A stretch of 64,000 nt of DNA from Vibrio halioticoli NBRC 102217 (lineage in GTDB: Bacteria; Pseudomonadota; Gammaproteobacteria; Enterobacterales; Vibrionaceae), in contig NZ_BAUJ01000005.1 of the NCBI RefSeq assembly GCF_000496695.1, positions 62,001-126,000 on the forward strand. Direction: 5' to 3'. Positions 47,817 through 62,248 of the stretch are shown here, piece by piece (position 1 is the first letter of the stretch; each line of letters begins with the position of its first letter). The notes beneath the pieces were generated by a model. That model was not told the origin of the DNA and did not search any database. It worked only from the letters and a program-made list of their open reading frames with translations. Made by a program: the position numbers and the translations under genes.

Positions 47817-50567
47817 TTATTTTGCATTTACACGGTTGATGATGCGAACTTCATCAAAGTATGCTTTTGAGTCAGATGCTGGTGTACCTTGGTACGTTAG
47901 AGCAAACTCATCTAGACGAACTTCTAGTTCTTTGTCACTTTCTACTAGAGCTTCTAACTCTTCTTGAGTGAAGGTTTCAGTATCGATTTCCATGTAGGCA
48001 AATACGTTAACATCAGAGTTTGAACCGCTATTGAAGTCAACAGTTACTTGCTTAAAGCAATCTTTAACACTGCCTTCTGGTGCGTCATCTAAGTCTCTCA
48101 CGTGTGCTCTTGCTTCAGCAATAACTAGACCATCGCTATCTTCAACACCGTAGTGCAGGATTGAAGCAGAATCGTCGCCTTTGTTATCACAGTAGTACAG
48201 GCTGAATGTCATATCTGTACCCGCTGGAATACCAGACACTTGTTGGCTTAGGCCAGGCTTAGAATCAAAGTTGTATACTGCTTCACCAGACTTAAAGCGA
48301 ACACGAGCAGAACCGTTTGAACCACCTTCGTCAGTAAATGCTGAGTCGCCAGAACTACCTACATCACCCAGACCTTCGCTGCTACCTTCTTTTGAAATCC
48401 AAACTTCACTGCTACCACCGTCAGCACGCCATTGACCTAGGTCACCATCAACGATGCCAGCGTCTAATGTTACTTCGGCAGCAAGTGCTAGAGATAGATC
48501 CGCTGAAGTTTCAGAACCAGTTGTGAACTCATGGATAACCAGTTGGTAATCACTATCAGAAGCGTCACCGTCAAAGCTGTGCTCACCGACAGTAATGTTG
48601 TATTTACCTTTAACAAAAGCAGAGACTGCATGTGGTGTGTTCGGTAAAAGAGTCACTGTTTGTGATGCACTTTGGTCGCTACCTTCAACCACTAAGCTTG
48701 AGTCATAACTAAATGTTGCTGTGCTTGTTGTAGTTGCAGTACCAGACCAACCTTCTGTTCCATCAACAAATGCGTAGTTTTCAATTGCTACTTCGTTGAT
48801 GATAGCTGCTGGTTTCTCGAAATCGTAAGATTTAGGACCAACATCGGCATAAGTTAATGGCTCAAGTAGTGGAGAACCGTTTGTCACATCATCCGCACCC
48901 GCTAGAGTCGCTTCGTTACGAGTAAGGCCATCCATATCGATAGTAATTGCTGCGAACTCACCTTTATCGTATTCAGTTGCGTCGATGCTTGAAAGGTCCG
49001 AAGGACGGTATAGACCATCAATACCTTTTTCTAGCTCAGCACTAACTCGAATACCGGATACATTGTCAGTATCTGCAAATGACTGACCATCTACGATGTT
49101 ACCCACAACGACAGAACTGTTTGCCCAACCGCGGTCTGTTTCAACAAATACTGGACCGATAGCTTTATCAACAATGTTATTTGCGAAATAGATTTGCTCT
49201 GGTTGATCAGACTTGCCGCCACCATCAATGTTGATACTGTTTACACTGTCTACCACAGTGTTAAATGCCACATGTACATTTTCTAATTGCTGGTAACCAT
49301 TGCCACCATCACCAGAACCGTCACCGCCTAGCAGAACAATACCACCGTGGTGAGTCGTTGATTTGTAACGTGCACCTTCAATGTAGTTGTTAGCTACGAT
49401 ATGACCATCATCTACCAGTCTTAAACCGCCTGCGTAAGGGTTACCATCACCGAAAACAAAGTTGTTTGAAACGTTGTTGTGGTTACCGTGACGGTTGGTG
49501 ATTGAACCGTAGCTGTTACGGACTGTGTTTTGTGCGATGACGTTGTTTGATGCTTTGTTTGAAATAACTTCCGCTTCACCTTGAATACGCTCAAATAAGT
49601 TACCCACGATAAATGAGTTACCTGCGTAGTGGTGAGTTTCACTTAGACCAGTACGAATTGCTTCGTAGTCATTGTCACTGCTACCTGCGTACAATTTACC
49701 GTTTGTTGGTGGACGGTTAGCAAAGTAGTTCGCATAAACTGTGGTGTACTCAGCTAGGCCACCATTGCCTTCATCCATTAGTCCACTTTCACGTAGTAAG
49801 GAAACCATTGGGTTACCCGTTGTTTTACCACTGAAAATGTTGTGATCAAGCCAGTTATGTTGACCGTATAGTGCAATCCAAACACCATTGTCTGAGCTAT
49901 CGCTAGTTAGGTTTTGGTCGCCATCAACATTAAGGAATACGTTTTCTGAAATACGACAATGGTTACACATCTCAGTTGAACCAAAGCGTGTTTCTAATAG
50001 CTTGCTGCTTGAGCTTTCAGGACCATCGAAAACAAGGCCGTGTAGTTGAACGTGCTCACCGCCCATAACCACTTTAGCTTCACCAGTAATAATTACTTCA
50101 CCAGGAGTCACAGCACGAACTTTGATTGGCGCTTCTTCAGTACCAATACCACCAAACTTAAGGTTTGCTTCGGTATAAGTACCATCTTCGATACAAATGA
50201 CAGTGCCAGCAGCTAGATCAGTCACACTCATATCAATTTCTGAAACAGTTTCTGTACACTCAGCAGGATCAGAAGTCAGTAGCGTTTTAACGCCTTCAGG
50301 CATAGCTGATACAGAAGGAACATCTGATTCTACTTCTACAGGTGGCTCTTCAGGAGTTCCTTCACCAGGATTTTCTTCACCTGGGTTTTCTTCACCTGGG
50401 TTTTCATCGCCAGGATTCTCATCACCTGGGTTTTCATCTCCAGGAGGAGTCACTGGATTAGATGGAATTGAATTATCAGGGGGATTCGCAGTGTCGTTGT
50501 CTGTAGTTGAGTCGTTACAACCGACCAATGCAAGCCCTATTAACATGGCTAAAATATTCTTGTTCAT
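47817..50567 (-). CDS. lipoprotein alginate lyase, family PL6
   Basis: Surface or periplasmic lipoprotein of 916 aa. The lipobox ALVGC puts the lipidated Cys at residue 17. A linker of repeated GDENP/GEENP units (about 42-72) leads to a right-handed beta-helix domain (~85-600) of the PL6 (chondroitinase B-like) family. The catalytic Lys338 (VISNKASNN) and Arg359 (SITNRHGNH) are 21 residues apart, exactly as in chondroitinase B (Lys250/Arg271). The acidic residues before the Lys (GEAEV) fit the Ca site. Two C-terminal beta-sandwich modules (about 600-700 and 700-916) are probably carbohydrate-binding. The substrate is alginate, probably polyMG or polyM; dermatan is a less likely alternative. 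GAGAGAG precedes the ATG. It is monocistronic with its own terminator. Confidence 0.92.
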   Translation of the reverse strand: MNKNILAMLIGLALVGCNDSTTDNDTANPPDNSIPSNPVTPPGDENPGDENPGDENPGEENPGEENPGEGTPEEPPVEVESDVPSVSAMPEGVKTLLTSDPAECTETVSEIDMSVTDLAAGTVICIEDGTYTEANLKFGGIGTEEAPIKVRAVTPGEVIITGEAKVVMGGEHVQLHGLVFDGPESSSSKLLETRFGSTEMCNHCRISENVFLNVDGDQNLTSDSSDNGVWIALYGQHNWLDHNIFSGKTTGNPMVSLLRESGLMDEGNGGLAEYTTVYANYFANRPPTNGKLYAGSSDNDYEAIRTGLSETHHYAGNSFIVGNLFERIQGEAEVISNKASNNVIAQNTVRNSYGSITNRHGNHNNVSNNFVFGDGNPYAGGLRLVDDGHIVANNYIEGARYKSTTHHGGIVLLGGDGSGDGGNGYQQLENVHVAFNTVVDSVNSINIDGGGKSDQPEQIYFANNIVDKAIGPVFVETDRGWANSSVVVGNIVDGQSFADTDNVSGIRVSAELEKGIDGLYRPSDLSSIDATEYDKGEFAAITIDMDGLTRNEATLAGADDVTNGSPLLEPLTYADVGPKSYDFEKPAAIINEVAIENYAFVDGTEGWSGTATTTSTATFSYDSSLVVEGSDQSASQTVTLLPNTPHAVSAFVKGKYNITVGEHSFDGDASDSDYQLVIHEFTTGSETSADLSLALAAEVTLDAGIVDGDLGQWRADGGSSEVWISKEGSSEGLGDVGSSGDSAFTDEGGSNGSARVRFKSGEAVYNFDSKPGLSQQVSGIPAGTDMTFSLYYCDNKGDDSASILHYGVEDSDGLVIAEARAHVRDLDDAPEGSVKDCFKQVTVDFNSGSNSDVNVFAYMEIDTETFTQEELEALVESDKELEVRLDEFALTYQGTPASDSKAYFDEVRIINRVNAK
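50357..50445 (-). repeat. 15-bp tandem repeat encoding the (G-D/E-E-N-P) linker
   Basis: About six degenerate 15-bp units (CCAGGATTTTCTTCA / CCTGGGTTTTCATCG pattern) within the PL6 gene code for the acidic-proline spacer. The unit length is a multiple of three, so copy-number change would alter linker length without a frameshift. Confidence 0.85.
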
Positions 50568-51974: not shown

Positions 51975-53405
51975 ATGAGTGAAAAAACGTCTAAGTTTAA
52001 CCGTAGGGATTTCTTGAAAGGTAGCGCAGGTGTTGCTGTTGCAGGAATAGGTACTTCTCTTTTCTCAACAAATGCTTTAGCGAGACACCAGCATCACCAT
52101 CCACATCACCCACACTCAACCTTCTCTCACGGCAACTCTTCAGACAAACATTTCTGGAAGAAGGTTCAACAGCAGTTCTCTTTAGCTAAAGGCAATGTCT
52201 ACATGAACATTGGTACAACTGGTTCCATGCCAACCAGTGTGCAAAAAACCTTAACGGAGAATCATGAGCTTGTTGCAAGCTACCCTTGGGATATGCAAAA
52301 CAAATTCGGTAGCTGGCCTTACATGAGCCAAATGGCTGCAGATATTGCACCTGGTTTTGGTGCAGATGAAAACGAAATCGTTCTAAGCCGAAATACAACA
52401 GACGGTATGGTTTCAATTCTTAGCGGTCTTGATTTCAAAGAAGACGATATCATCATCACTACCCACCATGAGCATATCGGTGGTAAATCTCCACTATTTA
52501 CAGCAGCCGATCGCGTAGGCGCTAAAGTTATTGTTGTTGAAATTCCGGTTTACACCGGCGAGAAAAAACTGAAGAAAAAAGACTTCGTTGATGTATTTGC
52601 TGATGCGATCAAAGAGCATAATGCAAACGGCAATGTGCGCTTAGTAATGTTCTCTCACATTACTTACTTAACTGGTACTTTACTACCAGCAAAAGAAATT
52701 TGTGCACTAGCACGTGATAACGGTATCCCTACTTTAGTTGATGCCGCTCATACCATTGGCATGATGAATGTTAACTTGCATGACTTGGATTGTGATTTTT
52801 ACGCAGGTTCTGGCCATAAGTGGCAGTGTGGCCCTGGTGCAACGGGTATCCTTTATGTTCGTCAAGAAGCTGAGCGTTTGATTCGTTTCTGGCCTGCAGA
52901 CCGCCGTCCTTTCTACTTTGTTAACTCATCACTTGGTGAAGATGGTTATCAAACAATGAACTTTGTGACCAGAATGCAATACATCGGCAACGACAACTAC
53001 CCTGCAAAACAAGCTCTAGCTGATACTTGTAAGCTATGGGATGAAATTGGTCGTGATAAAATCGAAGAACGTATTCTAGATCTTAGTGCTTTGTGTAAAG
53101 AAGAGCTAAGCAAAGAATTGCCACACGGTACTCTTTTCTGCCCGCCAGAGCGTGAACTATCAAGTGGTTTAACTGCATTCAACCCATTCTCTGATGACTT
53201 GTCTAACGGCACTCGTCTGACTGAATTCCGTGATCTACTTCGCGAAGAATACGGATACACTATCCGTACCACTAACTTCTCATTGCGTCTAGACGATACT
53301 ACTGCTACTTATGCATTACGTATTTCTACTCACTTATTCCATGATGAAGATGATGTAACGGGTCTAGTGAAAGCGATGGCACATTTGTACAAACGAATGG
53401 CTTAA
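51975..53405 (+). CDS. Tat-exported PLP-dependent class V aminotransferase-like enzyme
   Basis: Periplasmic member of the cysteine desulphurase/isopenicillin N epimerase-like PLP family. The twin-arginine signal is explicit (KFNRRDFLKGSAG, cleavage near NALA-R). A short His-rich stretch follows (seven His in residues 38-47). PLP-binding features are Asp256-His259 (VDAAHTIG) and the Schiff-base Lys282 in SGHKWQCGPGATG. 476 aa. PLP enzymes in the periplasm are rare; PvdN of Pseudomonas pyoverdine maturation is a known Tat-exported example. No siderophore genes are here. Next come a binding protein and a GGDEF-EAL protein, so it may make or remove their ligand. A 10-bp hairpin separates it from the next gene. 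AAGGAAATG precedes the ATG. Confidence 0.88.
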   Translation: MSEKTSKFNRRDFLKGSAGVAVAGIGTSLFSTNALARHQHHHPHHPHSTFSHGNSSDKHFWKKVQQQFSLAKGNVYMNIGTTGSMPTSVQKTLTENHELVASYPWDMQNKFGSWPYMSQMAADIAPGFGADENEIVLSRNTTDGMVSILSGLDFKEDDIIITTHHEHIGGKSPLFTAADRVGAKVIVVEIPVYTGEKKLKKKDFVDVFADAIKEHNANGNVRLVMFSHITYLTGTLLPAKEICALARDNGIPTLVDAAHTIGMMNVNLHDLDCDFYAGSGHKWQCGPGATGILYVRQEAERLIRFWPADRRPFYFVNSSLGEDGYQTMNFVTRMQYIGNDNYPAKQALADTCKLWDEIGRDKIEERILDLSALCKEELSKELPHGTLFCPPERELSSGLTAFNPFSDDLSNGTRLTEFRDLLREEYGYTIRTTNFSLRLDDTTATYALRISTHLFHDEDDVTGLVKAMAHLYKRMA

Positions 53406-53421
53406 TATTTGCTTAACAGTC

Positions 53422-53449
53422 TAGGGCTTACTTGCTAATGTAAGCCCTA
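53422..53449 (+). terminator. intercistronic hairpin after the PLP enzyme gene
   Basis: TAGGGCTTAC and GTAAGCCCTA form a perfect 10-bp stem with an 8-base loop, followed by CTTTATAT. It may terminate part of the transcripts, lowering expression of the downstream sensor genes. Confidence 0.6.
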
Positions 53450-53473
53450 CTTTATATCTCAAGGACGAAGGCA

Positions 53474-54406
53474 ATGATCAAAACAAAGACCATATTCAGC
53501 ATTATAAAGAGTCTTTGCATCGCTTTATTATTTGTTATCAAGCCAAGTTATGCTTATGACTTAGCCGATGTCAAAAAAGCAGGTGTAATTCGCCACATTG
53601 GCATCCCTTACGCCAACTTTGTTAATTATATCAATACAGGTGGCCTCCATACCGCACAGGGCTTAGATGTTGAGCTTATACAAGGCTTTGCTAAATACTT
53701 AGGTGTTGAATACCAATTTGTTCCAAGCACTTGGAACAGCGCTTTTGGCGATCTCACAGGAAAAGAAGCCATTTATAAAAATAACGTCATACAGTACGGT
53801 AAAACAGTGCCGATTACAGGTGATGTAATAGCCAATGGTGCAACCATTCTTCCATGGCGAGAGCAGTTGTTGGATTTCTCTGATGACTACTTCCCTTCTG
53901 CTGTATGGTTAATTTCTCGCGTTGATTCAAAACTACAGCCCATTTCTCCGAGTAATAGTGTAGATAAAGACATTAATACCGTGAAAGCATTGCTCAAAGG
54001 TCAAAATGTGTTAGCTATGGAGCAGACATGCCTAGACCCTAACTTGTACGATCTATACAAAACTGGGGCCAATATCATTCTTCCAGAGAAGGCGCGTAAA
54101 TTAAATGAGATGGTGCCAGCAATATTAAATAATGATGCAGATAACACACTGCTCGATGTTCCGGATACTCTTATTGCGTTAGAAAAATGGCCTGGCGAAA
54201 TTAAAGTTATCGGTCCAATTTCTGAAGAACAGTTTATGGCTGCGGGATTTAGAAAAGACTCACCAAAATTACGCGAAGCTTTTAATGACTACTTAAGAGA
54301 GATTCGACGTAACGGTACTTACAATCAATTAGTTGAAAAATATTATCCTTCCGTCTTTTATTATTACAGTGACTACTTTGAGGCTCACAAAAGTAACGAT
54401 TCATGA
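53474..54406 (+). CDS. periplasmic solute-binding protein, family 3, sensor-type
   Basis: 310-aa exported binding protein: signal peptide ending PSYA, then the SBP family 3 pattern (DLADVKKAGVIRHIGIPYANF, GLDVELIQGFAKYLGVEYQFVPSTWNSAFGDL, NGATILPWREQLLDFSDDYFPSAVWLIS, LREAFNDYLREIRRNGTYNQLVEKYYP). This fold binds amino acids or similar small molecules. No permease or ATPase gene is near. Its stop overlaps the start of a GGDEF-EAL membrane protein gene, so it more likely reports ligand state to that protein than feeds a transporter. V. cholerae NspS (polyamine-binding) with MbaA (GGDEF-EAL) is the closest described arrangement, though NspS is of a different SBP class. Confidence 0.85.
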   Translation: MIKTKTIFSIIKSLCIALLFVIKPSYAYDLADVKKAGVIRHIGIPYANFVNYINTGGLHTAQGLDVELIQGFAKYLGVEYQFVPSTWNSAFGDLTGKEAIYKNNVIQYGKTVPITGDVIANGATILPWREQLLDFSDDYFPSAVWLISRVDSKLQPISPSNSVDKDINTVKALLKGQNVLAMEQTCLDPNLYDLYKTGANIILPEKARKLNEMVPAILNNDADNTLLDVPDTLIALEKWPGEIKVIGPISEEQFMAAGFRKDSPKLREAFNDYLREIRRNGTYNQLVEKYYPSVFYYYSDYFEAHKSNDS

Positions 54407-56700
54407 ACATGAAGCCTAGATTAAATCGCCGAAATGCAATTCTTATGGGAGGATTTCTTCTAGGCGCTTACTTGCTTTTAATGATTATAGTCACTAACGC
54501 AGGGCAAAATCGTCTCAAAGAGTCACAGCTAAACGAATTGAATTTGAATGTTACAATTTATTCAGAATCAATTGGTTACTTCTTTGAGACAGCAAGTAAA
54601 GAAATTCGTGAAGTATCTCAACATAAAACCACGTATACGTTTTTTGCGAACCTCGCTTCCGGTATGTCCATGCAATATGGACTAGGATCAAGCTTGCTTC
54701 AGTTACGTCGTAATTTGATTCGCCATACCACACCAAACCAGCATCTACATGAAAATGCTAAATTCGATCGCATGCTATTGGTAGGTTTCAATTCAAACAT
54801 TATTGCAGACTCCAATCCCAAAATTCCGTTTGATATAGACAGTATTCCCTTTCAAACAATGCAAACCATCGACCATAAAATCGATATTGTGGCAAAAGAT
54901 GGTCATATCACTATTCGAGCACTGCAAAACGTTTACTTAAACGGTGAACTGGTCGGAATTGTCGTCGGTGATATAAAAACAACGGCCATTATTAATCTGC
55001 TAACCACTCAAGAATACCAACTCAGTAATAGCCGACTCTCACTATCAACAGATGCAGGCTCATTACCTATTTGGGACACTTTTGATTCCTCAGCAAGTTA
55101 CCGCTCAAATACTTTGTACTTTAATAAGAAAGTGGCTAATACCCCTTTTAATATACATGCATGGTTTGCACCAATATCAGAAAGCCAGATCATAACTTCA
55201 ACTTGGTTTACCATCGCACTCTCTTTCTTGGCAGTACCTGTTATTTTTGGCCTGTATTACTCTTTGCGTATTAACAATACCAACTTAGTACTCACCACTA
55301 AAATTGAAGAAACCCATAGCCAACAAGCAGTATTAACACGACAGAACCACCGCCTTAAAACAGAGATAGACAGACGTAAAATGTTTGAAAAGGAACTGGC
55401 TTATCAAGCCAGTCACGATATTTTAACTGGCTTATCTAACCGAAAATCAGGCGATGAAAAACTGAAGCATGCCTTGTTACAAGCCAAGCGAGATGATGTG
55501 AATGTTTTAGTCATGTTCATTGACCTTGATGACTTTAAGCAAATCAACGACACGTTAGGACACTTAGCGGGCGATAAACTGCTAGTACAAACAGCCAAAC
55601 GTTTGCGCCAATCGGTACGAAAAACAGATGTTGTTGCGCGCATTGGAGGGGATGAATTTTTACTGGTTATCCCTAACTTAGACTCTGAAAAAGAAGCTCA
55701 AACTTTAGCTTCTAAGCTGTTAACTATCTTTGAACAACCTTTTCAGCTTAACGGAAGTCAATTTTTTATCTCCACCAGCATTGGTATGTCCATTTACCCT
55801 CAAGATGGTAAAACGACAGAAGAGCTAATGGCACATGCCGATATTGCGATGTATCGAGTAAAAAAAGAAGGTCGAAATGGCTTTAGCTTCTACGAAGCAA
55901 GCATGAATACCGATGTACAAAGAAGCTTGGATATTGATGCTAGGCTACGTCAAGCAATTAACGATAATAAATTAGAGATCTACTATCAGCCGATTATTGA
56001 TCTAGAAAGTAAAAAAATCACCGGCGCTGAAGCCTTAATGCGATGGTGGGATGACAAACTTGGCTTTGTACCGCCAGATGAATTTATTCCCATTGCAGAG
56101 AGAAATGGGCTTATCCATAAGTTAGGGCATATGGCGCTACATACAGCCTGTCACCAAGCTCAACAATGGCAAGCCATTCAACCGCTTTCCATTGCTGTAA
56201 ACTTTTCTGCGGCTCAATTTAGGCAACAAGACTCATTAATTGAAACTATCTTAACTGCACTGAGTAATTCAGGCTTAGATGCCAACTTACTCGATATTGA
56301 AATTACGGAAAGCTTACTCTTTAACAACAACATCGAAACTGTGCAGATATTAGAAGAAATCAAACGAATTGGCGCGCACTTTTCTATTGATGATTTTGGT
56401 ACTGGATATTCAGCGTTGAGTTATCTGCAGAAATTTCCGTTCAGTAAGTTAAAGATCGATCGTTCGTTCCTGCAGGATATGGAAACCAACCCTTCTTCGC
56501 AAGAACTGGTCAACGCCATTATTGCTATGGCAAAAGCTCTTGGACTTAAAGTGGTTGCAGAGGGTGTTGAAACTCAATGGGATCAAAACTATTTAAAAAC
56601 ACAGCATTGTGAATTTTCCCAAGGATATTACTACAGTAAAGCACTCTCTAAAGAAGACTTTGAGGCGCTCTTATTACAACATAATCCAAACGTTACCTAA
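54403..56700 (+). CDS. membrane-bound GGDEF-EAL cyclic-di-GMP enzyme
   Basis: 765-aa inner-membrane protein. TM1 lies at about 13-31 and TM2 at about 264-286, with a periplasmic sensor region between (32-263). The cytoplasmic GGDEF domain has the intact GGDEF motif (415-419), and an RxxD inhibitory site (Arg406-Asp409) exactly five residues ahead. The EAL domain has EAL at 543-545, then DDFGTGYSALSYL, KIDRSFL and VVAEGVET. Both diguanylate cyclase and phosphodiesterase activity are possible. No PAS or HAMP domain is seen. ATG at 54403 overlaps the binding-protein stop (ATGA), so the two are coupled and probably act as a receptor pair. Confidence 0.93.
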   Translation: MNMKPRLNRRNAILMGGFLLGAYLLLMIIVTNAGQNRLKESQLNELNLNVTIYSESIGYFFETASKEIREVSQHKTTYTFFANLASGMSMQYGLGSSLLQLRRNLIRHTTPNQHLHENAKFDRMLLVGFNSNIIADSNPKIPFDIDSIPFQTMQTIDHKIDIVAKDGHITIRALQNVYLNGELVGIVVGDIKTTAIINLLTTQEYQLSNSRLSLSTDAGSLPIWDTFDSSASYRSNTLYFNKKVANTPFNIHAWFAPISESQIITSTWFTIALSFLAVPVIFGLYYSLRINNTNLVLTTKIEETHSQQAVLTRQNHRLKTEIDRRKMFEKELAYQASHDILTGLSNRKSGDEKLKHALLQAKRDDVNVLVMFIDLDDFKQINDTLGHLAGDKLLVQTAKRLRQSVRKTDVVARIGGDEFLLVIPNLDSEKEAQTLASKLLTIFEQPFQLNGSQFFISTSIGMSIYPQDGKTTEELMAHADIAMYRVKKEGRNGFSFYEASMNTDVQRSLDIDARLRQAINDNKLEIYYQPIIDLESKKITGAEALMRWWDDKLGFVPPDEFIPIAERNGLIHKLGHMALHTACHQAQQWQAIQPLSIAVNFSAAQFRQQDSLIETILTALSNSGLDANLLDIEITESLLFNNNIETVQILEEIKRIGAHFSIDDFGTGYSALSYLQKFPFSKLKIDRSFLQDMETNPSSQELVNAIIAMAKALGLKVVAEGVETQWDQNYLKTQHCEFSQGYYYSKALSKEDFEALLLQHNPNVT

Positions 56701-56918: not shown

Positions 56919-57593
56919 ATGCAAAATATTATTGATTTATTACAACGTAAGCAATTGATTTGGAAGGGTTCAGAGCAAAGTATCCCTTTAATTAACCAAG
57001 CTTCTTACTTTAGTGAATGGGATAAACAGCTAGAAGGTTTTCCCAAAATGGGGCTCATGGAGATCCAATCTGAATTTGGTATTGGTGAGTTGCGTTTACT
57101 AACACCTATGTTGCAATCTACTGTTCAAGATCGCACTTTAGTATTGATTAACCCACCTGCACTACCATGTGCTCATTATTTTGAAGCCGAAGGCATCGCG
57201 CCTCACAATGTCTTAGTTATAAACAGCACAAAACACGACTTATGGGCCGCCGAGCAATGCTTAAAAAGCGGCAGTTGCGCCTGTGTGTGCTTATGGCACC
57301 CACAGCTTGAAGTTCATCAAGCAAGGCGTTTACAAATTGCGGCTGAAAAAGGCCGAGCATTAAACGTACATTTTAATCTCGACCGCCAAAATAGTTGCTC
57401 ATTACCTATTCCTCTTAGCGTACAACTCAACGCAACAGAAAACGGCATTAAAGTGAATGTCATTAAACGCCGCGGAGGATGGCAACAACAAGCCTTTACT
57501 GTCGATTTAAGCCATCGCTGGCCACAACTTTGTACTCAAAAACCTTTACACCAAGTCATTCCTTTCCCTCGACACAAGAGGCAGCACGCATGA
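56919..57593 (+). CDS. imuA: ImuA (SulA/RecA-like) protein of the SOS mutagenesis cassette
   Basis: 224-aa RecA-like protein of the ImuA/SulA group. It has LLQRKQLIWKGSEQ at the start, GLMEIQSEFGIGELRLLTPML in the place of the RecA nucleotide region, and VLVINSTKHDLWAAEQCLKSGSCACVCLW typical of ImuA. The Walker A motif is not intact, as usual for gamma-proteobacterial ImuA. First gene of the imuA-imuB-dnaE2 cassette. AGG lies in the right half of the LexA box upstream of the ATG. Its stop overlaps the imuB start. Confidence 0.88.
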   Translation: MQNIIDLLQRKQLIWKGSEQSIPLINQASYFSEWDKQLEGFPKMGLMEIQSEFGIGELRLLTPMLQSTVQDRTLVLINPPALPCAHYFEAEGIAPHNVLVINSTKHDLWAAEQCLKSGSCACVCLWHPQLEVHQARRLQIAAEKGRALNVHFNLDRQNSCSLPIPLSVQLNATENGIKVNVIKRRGGWQQQAFTVDLSHRWPQLCTQKPLHQVIPFPRHKRQHA

Positions 57594-59092
57594 ATCTTTG
57601 GTTGTATATCCATTTTCCAAAACTGCAATTAGATACGCTGTTTGCTGACTCGACTTTAGATTCCGCTACAAGCTCTAAAGTTGCGTTCGATCCTCAAGCA
57701 AAAAATGAGCTTAACAATCAACCTTTACACCATCAACTTATACACAGCCAGCCAAAGCACAGCCCCGCTATTTGTATAGTTGATCAACACAAGATCATAC
57801 AACTCAATCAAGCCGCTTCTGATAAAGGCATAAAATTAGGAATGGGGTTAGGTAGCGCCGCTTCACTGTGCGCTGAGCTGCAAGTATTTCCTTATCAACA
57901 ACAAATAGAAATGGATACATTACAGCAAATTGCACAATGGCTATATGTGTATACCTCTGACATTACGCTATTCACAGAGCAAGGCTTGCTACTGAAAGTC
58001 TCCAATATGTTAACCCTATATCGTAACCTCGATAGTTACTGGAAAACTATCTCACAACACCTTAATCAACTGCATCTGCACTATCATTATGCGACCGCAT
58101 TCTCGCCACTTGCAGCCAAATTGTTAGCCGAAACTCACTGTGATCGTATCACTGATGACCCAGATGTAATTGAGCAGTCCATTTTACAGCGCCCACTTAT
58201 TGCCACCGAACTTAGCGCAGCAAATATCGAGAAGCTCGCTCGTATTGGTGTACATAATTTAACGCAACTTACTGCTCTCAATATGACGGACATTGCACGC
58301 CGCTTTGATATCCAAGTCGTCAACTATGTGGGGCGACTACTCGGTCAATTTAAGCACCCGGTACAGTATTATCATCCGCCCGCTCACTTTAATCAGCACC
58401 TTAATTTATTATATGAAATCGAACATACGCATTGCTTAATCGCACCATTAACCCGCTTATTAGGACAAATGGAAAGCTTTTTAAAGCTCAGAGATAAAGT
58501 GGCTTACGAAATTCAGCTTAGCCTTTACCAAAGGGATCAATCACTGCAGGAAATCACCTTCTATTCCGCCATTGGTGATTATCTTTCTGATAAGTGGCTA
58601 GCACTGTCTACACTAACACTTGAATCGACTCAGATCAGTTCACCTATTTTGTCGATTCGCTTACAAGTGATACGTATGGGAGAAACACCGGCGACCAACA
58701 CTGATCTATTTGATCAGCACACGGGGGAAACATCACCTTTAGAGCTACTTTCCTTATTACAAGCCAAGCTAGGCAAAGACGCAGTACAAGGTATTGCCTC
58801 TAATCACGATCCTAGACCTGAAATTAGTAGCACTTATATCCCTGCTTTTTCAAAGCCAGAAAAACACACCACACAAACAAAGCTCAGCCGCCCTAGCTTT
58901 ATCTACTCCAAACCTAAACCTCTTCATAGCAAAGTTGAAATCATCCAAGGTCCAGAGCGTATTCATAGCGGATGGTGGGATGGCAATTCGATTAATCGAG
59001 ATTACTTTGTGGCAAGAGAACACACTGGTCGCTGGTTATGGATATACAAAAACCCAGCCAAGGAATGGTTTATTCAAGGAGTGTTTAGCTAA
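57590..59092 (+). CDS. imuB: ImuB, Y-family polymerase-like adaptor
   Basis: 500-aa Y-family DNA polymerase homologue that should act as a scaffold linking DnaE2 to the beta clamp. The start MNLWLYIHFPKLQLD shows the family N-terminus, but the first catalytic Asp (DxDxF-type) is replaced by His-Phe-Pro, and the second acidic pair is absent around GLLLKVSN. It is therefore catalytically inactive, the norm for ImuB. The HhH and little-finger regions follow (IEKLARIGVHNLTQL). ATG at 57590 is fixed by the ATGA overlap with imuA; the frame is open upstream within imuA but has no start signal. Confidence 0.92.
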   Translation: MNLWLYIHFPKLQLDTLFADSTLDSATSSKVAFDPQAKNELNNQPLHHQLIHSQPKHSPAICIVDQHKIIQLNQAASDKGIKLGMGLGSAASLCAELQVFPYQQQIEMDTLQQIAQWLYVYTSDITLFTEQGLLLKVSNMLTLYRNLDSYWKTISQHLNQLHLHYHYATAFSPLAAKLLAETHCDRITDDPDVIEQSILQRPLIATELSAANIEKLARIGVHNLTQLTALNMTDIARRFDIQVVNYVGRLLGQFKHPVQYYHPPAHFNQHLNLLYEIEHTHCLIAPLTRLLGQMESFLKLRDKVAYEIQLSLYQRDQSLQEITFYSAIGDYLSDKWLALSTLTLESTQISSPILSIRLQVIRMGETPATNTDLFDQHTGETSPLELLSLLQAKLGKDAVQGIASNHDPRPEISSTYIPAFSKPEKHTTQTKLSRPSFIYSKPKPLHSKVEIIQGPERIHSGWWDGNSINRDYFVAREHTGRWLWIYKNPAKEWFIQGVFS

Positions 59093-59140
59093 TGTCTTAT
59101 CCATACATATTGAGCCATTCAACGGTAGTGTGTATCTAAA

Positions 59141-62100
59141 ATGAACATGTCTACAGTTAAATATGCTGAGCTTTTTTGCCAGAGTAATTTTTCATTTTTA
59201 ACCGGAGCCTCGCACCCCGAAGAACTCATTACACAAGCTGACTTTCTGGGCTATTCAGCGCTGGCTATAACCGATGAGTGCTCTTTAGCTGGCGTTGTTA
59301 GAGCGCATACTACAATTAAGAATAAGCAACTTAACATCAAGCTTATCGTCGGTAGTATGTTTTGGTTAGATCAAGAGTGTCAGATCGTACTGTTGTGTCC
59401 AAACCAACAAGCCTATGCTGAGTTGGCTCGTATCATCACTAACGCGCGCAGGCGTAGTGATAAAGGTAAGTATTCACTATCACAATGGGATGTTTTATCT
59501 ATTAAGCACTGCTTTATTATCTGGGTGCCACAGATGAAAGAATATGACCACCAATGGGCAAAGTGGTTAACTAAACAACACAGCGCGCGAGTGTGGTTGG
59601 GGTTACAAAGACACCTCACCAATACAGATAAGCAATACTTACAATATAATCAAAAGCTAGCCCATCAGTACGCCATTCCTATCACTGCCTGTGGCGGGGT
59701 ATTGATGCATAACGCCACTCGTCTTCCACTGCAACACACTCTTGTCGCAATCAAACATAATTCCACGGTAACAAGCATAAGTGAGCACCTACTGACCAAT
59801 GCAGAGCGAACCCTGCGTAATAAACCTAAATTGAGCAAACTCTTCCGTAAGGAGTGGCTAGAAGAAGCCCACAATATCGCCAGTCGCTGTTGTTTTAATT
59901 TGGCCAGTTTAGGCTATCAATATCCTGCCGAAATCGTCCCTGACTCTGTAACGCCATTTGCCCATTTATGTCACTTGGTCAATCAAGGTAAACAACTGCG
60001 GTTTCCTCATGGAGTTCCTGAAAACGTTCAGATCACCATAGATAAAGAACTCAAACTCATTGATGAGCTTAATTACGCCCATTTTTTCTTAACCATTCAT
60101 GATGTGGTGATGTTTGCCAAACAAAAGAAGATTTTGTATCAAGGTAGAGGCTCTGCAGCAAACTCTGTGGTGTGTTATTGCTTAGAAATCACCTCAGTCG
60201 ATCCTAGACAAATCTCAGTACTGTTTGAGCGTTTTATTAGTAAAGAGCGCAATGAGCCGCCCGATATTGATGTAGATTTTGAACATCACCGTCGTGAAGA
60301 AGTGATTCAATATATTTATCAAAAATATGGACGTGAGCGAGCAGCTCTTGCCGCTACCGTCATTAGCTATCGGCTAAAAAGTGCCATTAGAGAAGTAGGT
60401 AAAGCATTAGCCATAGATGAAACTCAGCTCGACTTTTTCATAAAGAACATTAACCGTCGTGATGTCGGTTTAAATTGGCAAGCACAAATTTATGAGCTGG
60501 GATTAAAGCCCGATTCTTTAAAAGGACAGCTCTTTATACAATTGGTCGATGAAATCATCGGCTTTCCTCGCCATTTATCGCAACACGTGGGCGGTTTTGT
60601 TATTTCAGCTGGTCCCTTATATGAATTAGTACCAGTAGAAAACGCTGCTATGCCTGAGCGTACTATTATCCAGTGGGATAAAGATGATTTAGAGAGTTTA
60701 GGGTTACTAAAAGTTGATGTACTTGCTTTAGGAATGCTAAGTGCCATCAGACGTTGTTTTCAGTTAATTGAACGTCATCATCAACGACAACTTAGTATTG
60801 CTGATATCACACGCCTACAAGACGATCCAAATGTGTATGCCATGCTACAAAAGGCCGACACTATAGGTGTTTTTCAAATAGAATCACGAGCTCAAATGAG
60901 CATGTTACCGCGCCTTAAACCACGTTGTTATTATGACTTAGTCATTCAAATTGCCATTGTCAGACCGGGCCCGATACAAGGCGATATGATTCACCCTTAC
61001 TTAAAGCGCAGAAATGGCGAACAAGCCATTTCGTACCCTTCTAAAGAGGTCGAAAGTGTCCTCTCAAGAACCTTAGGCGTACCTATATTTCAAGAACAAG
61101 TCATTAAACTGGCGATGGTGGCGGCAGGATTTAGTGGTGGTGAAGCCGACCAACTGCGCCGCGCTATGGCTGCTTGGAAAAAAAATGGCGATTTATTTAA
61201 GTTTCGCGATAAGTTAATTTCAGGGATGCTCTGTCGTGGTTATGAGCAGAGCTTTGCCGAGCAAATATTTGCACAGATTTGTGGTTTTGGTGAGTATGGG
61301 TTTCCGGAAAGTCACTCCGCCTCTTTTGCTGTGCTTGCTTATTGCTCTGCTTGGCTCAAATGCTACTATCCTGCCGAGTTTTACACAGCCCTACTCAATA
61401 GTCAGCCAATGGGGTTTTATTCATCTAACCAGCTATTACAAGATGCCAAACGACATGGCGTTAATGTGCACCCCATCAGTATCAACCAATCTAATGACGA
61501 GCACAGCATAGTCAGAAACAATAATATAAGTAGTATTCAATTGGGTTTAAAACTGATCAAAGGACTCTCTCAAAACAGCCGAGAGCAACTGCTGGCAGCA
61601 CGTCCAACCAAAGGGTTTACTCATATCCAGCAAATCAAAAATATTGGCATCAATCGGCAACAGTTGCATGCTCTTACCTCCGCTAATGCACTGTATGCGC
61701 TTACTGGTGATCGCTATTCCACTCGTTGGCAATTAATGGATTCCGTTGAAGATCTACCACTGTTTAACCAGCCATCATTTAACCGAAGACAAGACGAGCC
61801 AATTAAACATGGCTATACCTTTCAAACCAATGATTACGAAGCATTAATCGAGGACTATTCCGCCACTGGACTATCCCTAAACCAACACCCCATTACCCTG
61901 CTCGAAAAAGAGAATAAGTTAGGTAAGTTCATTCGACAAAATCAATTGATCCACCAACCTCATCAATCAATGGTCACGGTAGTCGGTGTGGTCACTGGCA
62001 GACAATCACCTCATACCGCTGGAGGGATTACCTTTTTCACTTTAGAAGATGATACTGGCAACATAAATGTGGTGGTGTGGCAAGCAACCGCCAGAGCACA

Positions 62101-62248
62101 AAAGAAAAGCTATTTAACGGCTAAGATACTAAAAGTAAAAGGAATCATAGAAAAAGAGGGAGACGTCATACACGTTATTGCAGGTCAGTTAATTGACATC
62201 AGTGATCAGTTATCACAACTAGCCAGTCGTTCTCGTGATTTTCATTAG
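59141..62248 (+). CDS. dnaE2: error-prone DNA polymerase III alpha-like, DnaE2
   Basis: 1035-aa C-family polymerase that makes SOS mutagenic bypass possible. The N-terminal PHP domain opens with YAELFCQSNFSFLTGASHPEEL; the polymerase domain has ILYQGRGSAANS, PPDIDVDFEHHRREE (catalytic Asp pair), FPRHLSQHVGGFVIS, IVRPGPIQGDMIHPYLKRR and FGEYGFPESHSASFAVLAY. The C-terminal OB-fold region is ITFFTLEDDTGNINVVVW. The length and PHP start match DnaE2 rather than the 1160-aa replicative DnaE1. It follows imuB by 48 bp in the same SOS operon. The ATG at 59147 is an equal alternative. Confidence 0.95.
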   Translation: MNMSTVKYAELFCQSNFSFLTGASHPEELITQADFLGYSALAITDECSLAGVVRAHTTIKNKQLNIKLIVGSMFWLDQECQIVLLCPNQQAYAELARIITNARRRSDKGKYSLSQWDVLSIKHCFIIWVPQMKEYDHQWAKWLTKQHSARVWLGLQRHLTNTDKQYLQYNQKLAHQYAIPITACGGVLMHNATRLPLQHTLVAIKHNSTVTSISEHLLTNAERTLRNKPKLSKLFRKEWLEEAHNIASRCCFNLASLGYQYPAEIVPDSVTPFAHLCHLVNQGKQLRFPHGVPENVQITIDKELKLIDELNYAHFFLTIHDVVMFAKQKKILYQGRGSAANSVVCYCLEITSVDPRQISVLFERFISKERNEPPDIDVDFEHHRREEVIQYIYQKYGRERAALAATVISYRLKSAIREVGKALAIDETQLDFFIKNINRRDVGLNWQAQIYELGLKPDSLKGQLFIQLVDEIIGFPRHLSQHVGGFVISAGPLYELVPVENAAMPERTIIQWDKDDLESLGLLKVDVLALGMLSAIRRCFQLIERHHQRQLSIADITRLQDDPNVYAMLQKADTIGVFQIESRAQMSMLPRLKPRCYYDLVIQIAIVRPGPIQGDMIHPYLKRRNGEQAISYPSKEVESVLSRTLGVPIFQEQVIKLAMVAAGFSGGEADQLRRAMAAWKKNGDLFKFRDKLISGMLCRGYEQSFAEQIFAQICGFGEYGFPESHSASFAVLAYCSAWLKCYYPAEFYTALLNSQPMGFYSSNQLLQDAKRHGVNVHPISINQSNDEHSIVRNNNISSIQLGLKLIKGLSQNSREQLLAARPTKGFTHIQQIKNIGINRQQLHALTSANALYALTGDRYSTRWQLMDSVEDLPLFNQPSFNRRQDEPIKHGYTFQTNDYEALIEDYSATGLSLNQHPITLLEKENKLGKFIRQNQLIHQPHQSMVTVVGVVTGRQSPHTAGGITFFTLEDDTGNINVVVWQATARAQKKSYLTAKILKVKGIIEKEGDVIHVIAGQLIDISDQLSQLASRSRDFH

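Follow-up and report, generated by a model that had tools for sequence, protein, structure and literature searches.

The window analysed here, a stretch of 64,000 nucleotides of contig NZ_BAUJ01000005.1 from Vibrio halioticoli NBRC 102217, carries three adjacent genes on its forward strand that follow one another A-B-C in one direction and that we read as an scrABC operon, as known from Vibrio parahaemolyticus. The first (51975..53405, an open reading frame (ORF) of 476 aa) would be the scrA orthologue and encodes a class V aminotransferase-fold enzyme, predicted to be dependent on pyridoxal 5'-phosphate (PLP), with a signal for twin-arginine translocation (Tat) and proposed as the synthase of the so-called S-signal. 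The second (53474..54406, 310 aa), assigned as scrB, encodes a solute-binding protein of family 3 with an N-terminus that is of Sec type as judged by eye, and the third (54403..56700, 765 aa), assigned as scrC, encodes a membrane GGDEF-EAL protein with a CACHE-like periplasmic sensor at about residues 36-263. These assignments are based on Pfam and orthology, complemented by a fold model for ScrB and a model of the sensor for ScrC. A gap of 68 bp separates scrA from scrB, while the end of scrB and the start of scrC share 4 bp (ATGA, 54403..54406); the three genes, the gap and the overlap had been proposed in a first-pass annotation of this DNA, and the ORF coordinates agree with it to the base.

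The domain content that this annotation had proposed is borne out by Pfam. ScrA matches Aminotran_5 (5e-30) and TAT_signal (residues 7-24, 25.4 bits for a cut-off of 22.7), and its Tat signal region (51999..52085, forward strand), with the invariant RRxF described below, reads N-R-R-D-F-L-K followed by a hydrophobic stretch whose end, near residue 37, was set by eye. ScrB matches SBP_bac_3 (2.4e-20), with Lig_chan-Glu_bd appearing below the cut-off only, and ScrC matches both GGDEF (2.5e-51) and EAL (2.6e-70), the corresponding motifs being intact at residues 415 and 543. Furthermore, neither an ABC permease, whose absence from the locus had also been pointed out, nor an ABC ATPase occurs among the five adjoining ORFs searched with Pfam, three of them also with NCBIfam, the ORFs further away being listed only.

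Searched separately in 227 Vibrio genomes (E up to 1e-100 for ScrA, 1e-40 for ScrB and 1e-20 for a profile of the ScrC sensor), the three proteins are found in identical sets of 42 genomes, so that the co-occurrence of the PLP enzyme with the binding protein-receptor pair, on which the first-pass annotation had staked its proposal, holds genome for genome. In 41 of the 42, the genes lie in the order A-B-C on one strand less than 300 bp apart; in the remaining one, G197, ScrC is matched by two fragments (one with a stop), the longer being 317 bp away. For this test each genome was represented by a single ScrA, without the second copies of G036, G075 and G207, and the ScrC of G197 by the longer of its fragments. 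With order, strand and spacing kept to this extent, the three-gene block is not a product of chance. Both ScrB and ScrC are likewise found beside ScrA in 30 of 31 loci from named organisms, 27 of which have all genes on one strand and three, from Shewanella, the B-C pair on the opposite strand; the 4-bp overlap of scrB and scrC recurs in 13 of the 30 having both genes. In the Shewanella loci (L026, L027 and L031), scrB-scrC is convergent to scrA, and enzyme and receptor could thus be expressed separately. The last named locus, L029, in which ScrB and the ScrC sensor were not found beside ScrA, starts just ahead of this gene and was counted neither way; what appears by eye to be the end of an EAL protein lies at 40-879 of it, 255 bp before ScrA.

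Across the family, 45 of 296 sampled genomes have ScrA, and they belong to 2 of the 13 genera covered; named matches also occur in Photobacterium, Moritella, Psychromonas, Shewanella and a metagenome-assembled genome that its record title assigns to Desulfobulbaceae. The latter carries an scrABC-like set (L033:5821-11225) with a longer ScrC-like protein of 1008 aa that includes a PAS region.

The joining of these three parts is not novel. While the first-pass annotation knew of no described system that does so, ScrABC of V. parahaemolyticus, reportedly described by Boles and McCarter in 2002, does precisely this, and the proposal of a new, undescribed system is rejected. In the published model, the product of ScrA is the ligand sensed by the binding protein ScrB to set the level of cyclic diguanosine monophosphate (c-di-GMP) (PMC11315295, PMC10269520). 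ScrA makes an extracellular S-signal acting through ScrB, and signal-bound ScrB triggers the phosphodiesterase activity of ScrC, which passes from synthesis to degradation of c-di-GMP, hence swarming. The operon has the locus tags VPA1513-VPA1511 (PMC10269520), ScrA is referred to as a PLP-dependent aminotransferase and two further S-signal sensors, SscL and SscS, are reported (PMC9303241), and a paper from 2024 (PMC11315295) still refers to the S-signal as an unknown molecule. Of the earlier suggestion that the enzyme could produce or destroy the sensed ligand, the model has production.

V. parahaemolyticus being absent from the 31 named loci, published sequences were used instead to find its locus. 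A quantitative PCR primer for scrA of strain RIMD2210633 (PMC8215210, Table 1) has its only match among the 227 Vibrio genomes in G111, where it falls within the ScrA homologue. Indeed, all eight published scrA sequences tried, namely seven primers (two of them trimmed of cloning tails) and the OpaR box, are found unchanged in the G111 locus; the start of scrA predicted from the printed position of this box (-260 to -241) is an ATG of the G111 ORF, and the EAL glutamate of G111 ScrC is residue 554, in agreement with the published E554A mutant. Because of these matches, G111 is taken as V. parahaemolyticus-type. It shares the 4-bp overlap of scrB and scrC, and its proteins are 58% (ScrA), 59% (ScrB) and 47% (ScrC) identical to those of the window over 475, 302 and 769 alignment columns, respectively. 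We thus consider, with a probability of about 93%, that the block is the scrABC operon, an already described system, in a Vibrio close to V. ezurae, and that a signal of the Tat-exported ScrA would pass through ScrB to ScrC and on to an output other than swarming.

What the present analysis adds to the known system is the invariant Tat motif of ScrA and the finding that vibrios devoid of flagella have kept the operon under purifying selection. R10, R11 and F13 (RRxF) of ScrA, as well as K282 of an HKW motif, are conserved without exception in the 31 aligned rows (the window and 30 of the 31 named loci, L021 being left out because its longest ORF covers residues 263-476 only; L029 was left out for ScrB and ScrC, and L033, with its extra PAS region, from the alignment of the ScrC sensor). 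K282 is taken to be the lysine that binds PLP, as predicted from the sequence. The twin arginine is also carried by ScrA of G111, and TatC is encoded in the genome of the window. Because the motif is invariant and TatC is present, ScrA most likely works in the periplasm and the S-signal would be made there, beside ScrB. A literature search returned no paper linking ScrA to twin-arginine export and none on both scrABC and halioticoli; both are weak negatives, as the founding ScrABC papers from 2002 and 2011 lay outside its reach. A search on PvdN gave one paper, which deals with a different subject.

G036, G075 and G207 (L039:2664-4865, L041 and L042) each encode a further ScrA-like enzyme, which shares 52-53% identity with ScrA of the window, and no second ScrB match was found alongside it in these three genomes. 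Its N-terminus in L039 reads as a Tat motif by eye, although the Pfam TAT model gave no match. In all three genomes the gene is divergent from one encoding a Ribonuc_L-PSP (RidA-type) protein that seems to carry a signal peptide. RidA proteins clear the enamine and imine products of PLP enzymes, and this neighbour may therefore be a clue to the chemistry that exported ScrA-like enzymes perform; no RidA-like neighbour lies beside scrABC in the fetched loci or in the window.

The structure work comprised predictions for ScrB and for the sensor of ScrC, Foldseek searches and VIA. The ScrB model has a mean predicted local distance difference test score (pLDDT) of 87 and amino-acid binding proteins as its nearest folds, and ScrB is predicted to be a periplasmic solute-binding protein whose export was judged by eye from its N-terminus. 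Two of its residues, R129 and D228, do not vary in any of the 31 aligned rows. Placed through a phmmer alignment to AncCDT-1, they presumably correspond to Arg77 and Asp161 of LAO. Arg77 of LAO has its role with the ligand carboxylate. In PMC5740067, the binding-site residues of LAO include Arg77 and Asp161, with Ser72 and Asp161 binding the amino group of the ligand. From the invariance of R129 and D228 at these anchoring positions we infer that the S-signal would be an amino-acid-like compound, which suggests the class of molecules to look for. The same residues are consistent with a different scheme, in which ScrA removes or modifies an amino acid or amine of the environment that ScrB senses, so that the system reads the surroundings and not a self-made signal; ScrA is a class V PLP enzyme with PvdN (5i90 and 5hh9, the best) and C-S lyases among its closest relatives of solved structure by sequence, so that it could chemically consume an amino acid. 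This scheme is quite unlikely in view of the extracellular S-signal that ScrA of V. parahaemolyticus is reported to produce.

For the sensor of ScrC, the model (mean pLDDT 79.5) aligns best with that of KinD (Z 16.8, root-mean-square deviation (rmsd) 2.6 over 192-195 residues) and then with that of DctB (Z 16.0, rmsd 2.7 over 194 residues), both of them double-CACHE sensors. The domain may be contacted by ScrB, may bind a ligand itself, or both.

Flagellin (PF00669) has no match in 13 of the 42 scrABC genomes, that of the window included, and FliG_C (PF01706) has none in any of these 13; both are present in G026, G174 and G111, which were run alongside. For scrA, scrB and scrC, the ratios of non-synonymous to synonymous substitution rates (dN/dS) are 0.03-0.08 in comparison with the flagella-less relatives G098 and V. 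ezurae L005 (which has the contig coordinates of G048), the values with L005 being rough for scrB and scrC, where synonymous sites are near saturation. The operon is therefore under strong purifying selection in the lineage of the window and, since flagellin and FliG are absent, its output there cannot be swarming, the role for which it is best known. By analogy with V. parahaemolyticus, where scrABC is reported also to repress capsular polysaccharide, control of biofilm or polysaccharide is favoured, and the output would most likely be exopolysaccharide, biofilm or adhesion. Such selection without flagella would set a biofilm-type role apart from swarming, and a lineage of this kind offers a clean background in which to measure that role.

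Several observations weigh against the assignment of this locus to a ScrABC system that works as in V. parahaemolyticus. Compared with V. harveyi, V. jasicida, V. mytili, V. owensii, V. diabolicus and V. sinaloensis, the ScrC sensor of the window is only 32-34% identical, as opposed to 55-57% for ScrA and 57-58% for ScrB, and because of this divergence the ligand or the coupling could differ. PilZ was not matched in the genome of the window, in G098 or in G128, among five genomes searched (G111 has five matches and G013 two), and the downstream circuit differs from that of V. parahaemolyticus in that both the PilZ match and the flagellar output are absent; as these three flagella-less genomes have no PilZ match, c-di-GMP may act there through other effectors. 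Upstream of scrA in the window, the best OpaR-like box is not outstanding, its score in a scan of nine upstream regions with a weak matrix of seven sites being reached by 113 of 200 shuffles; the figures are 0 of 200 for G111, one of the seven sites being its own, 5 of 200 for L006 and 62-160 of 200 for the other six. Genes of the operon are also damaged in relatives: ScrA is interrupted by four TAG codons in G128 and by one stop each in G070 and G174, and its frame is apparently broken in L021; stops interrupt the ScrB match of G070, G159 and G174, and ScrC is in two pieces in G197.

The divergence of the sensor could mean that the operon is orthologous and that its ligand, or the polarity of ScrC, has changed, so that its working would now depart from that of the V. 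parahaemolyticus system; given the gene order and the 4-bp overlap shared with G111, the one-to-one co-occurrence of the three genes and the unvarying R129 and D228 of ScrB, we consider such a change unlikely. The missing flagellar proteins and the stops in ScrA, of which those in G128 and G070 fall in flagella-less genomes, could for their part point to a decaying leftover of a lost swarming programme; this is very unlikely, as the window keeps three uninterrupted frames with intact GGDEF and EAL motifs, and the low dN/dS of all three genes disfavours decay. Apart from this, in G128 (L038, C1:766880-770250), where ScrA has its four in-frame TAG codons, ScrB and ScrC align through without a stop, which makes this strain a candidate, judging from its genes, for a natural strain able to sense but not to make the S-signal.

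In a functional scrABC operon of this kind, ScrA would fold with its PLP cofactor, be exported by the Tat pathway and, once active in the periplasm, make a small diffusible S-signal. ScrB would then capture this signal with the Arg and Asp that hold the ligand carboxylate and amino group in amino-acid binders, and the signal-bound form would contact the CACHE-like periplasmic domain of ScrC. ScrC would consequently shift from diguanylate cyclase to phosphodiesterase and c-di-GMP would fall, provided that the switch of V. parahaemolyticus operates likewise in the species of the window; in the flagella-less lineage, the change in c-di-GMP would presumably be passed on to exopolysaccharide, biofilm or adhesion. 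It is tempting to propose, tentatively and at somewhat less than even odds, that an amino-acid-like signal made in the periplasm by ScrA is captured before leaving the cell, that the system would be as much a readout of diffusion or surface confinement as of cell density, and that the module has been rewired to a wholly non-motile output in flagella-less vibrios.

Regarding the neighbourhood, Pfam assigns three of the five adjoining ORFs to a dehydrogenase, DUF3859 and a chondroitinase B-type lyase, and leaves two without match, one of which is ImuA by NCBIfam. The lyase (47817-50567, reverse strand) is a protein of 916 aa with a chondroitinase B domain and probably acts on alginate or another polysaccharide, its substrate being a guess. 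Directly downstream of scrABC (56919-62248, forward strand), ImuA is followed by ORFs that are ImuB- and DnaE2-like by eye, which together would form a translesion synthesis cassette.

Several known systems resemble parts of this operon. PvdN, a PLP enzyme of pyoverdine maturation in Pseudomonas, is exported by Tat, is the best solved sequence relative of ScrA and is called periplasmic by NCBIfam; membership of ScrA in this family is rejected, its score of 107.9 bits falling far below the cut-off of 650 of the NCBIfam equivalog NF051467. In LuxP-LuxQ, the autoinducer 2 (AI-2) receptor of Vibrio, a binding protein likewise works with a membrane receptor that has a PAS/CACHE-type periplasmic domain, in response to a self-made signal; unlike ScrABC, its output is a histidine kinase and its binding protein belongs to another family. 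NspS-MbaA of V. cholerae, to which the first-pass annotation had likened the locus, stands as an analogue, since a periplasmic binding protein acts there with a c-di-GMP receptor; the ligands of that system are polyamines. MbaA is a membrane GGDEF-EAL protein and NspS is PotD-like, and no enzyme gene is known to belong to the pair. As ScrB of the window is not PotD-like by Pfam, its matches being confined to SBP_bac_3 and the sub-cut-off Lig_chan-Glu_bd, NspS-MbaA is rejected as the nearest relative, and ScrABC is closer. With ScrABC of V. parahaemolyticus, the operon shares its three genes and their order, the 4-bp overlap of the second and third, the Tat motif and the GGDEF and EAL domains. 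It differs in its position beside imuA and imuB- and dnaE2-like genes (by eye), scrA of G111 lying about 30 kb from a flagellin gene on the same contig, in a genome with no match to flagellin, FliG_C or PilZ, in having no outstanding OpaR box and in its diverged sensor. The lateral-flagella swarming programme is an output that ScrABC regulates in V. parahaemolyticus and not a defining part of the operon.

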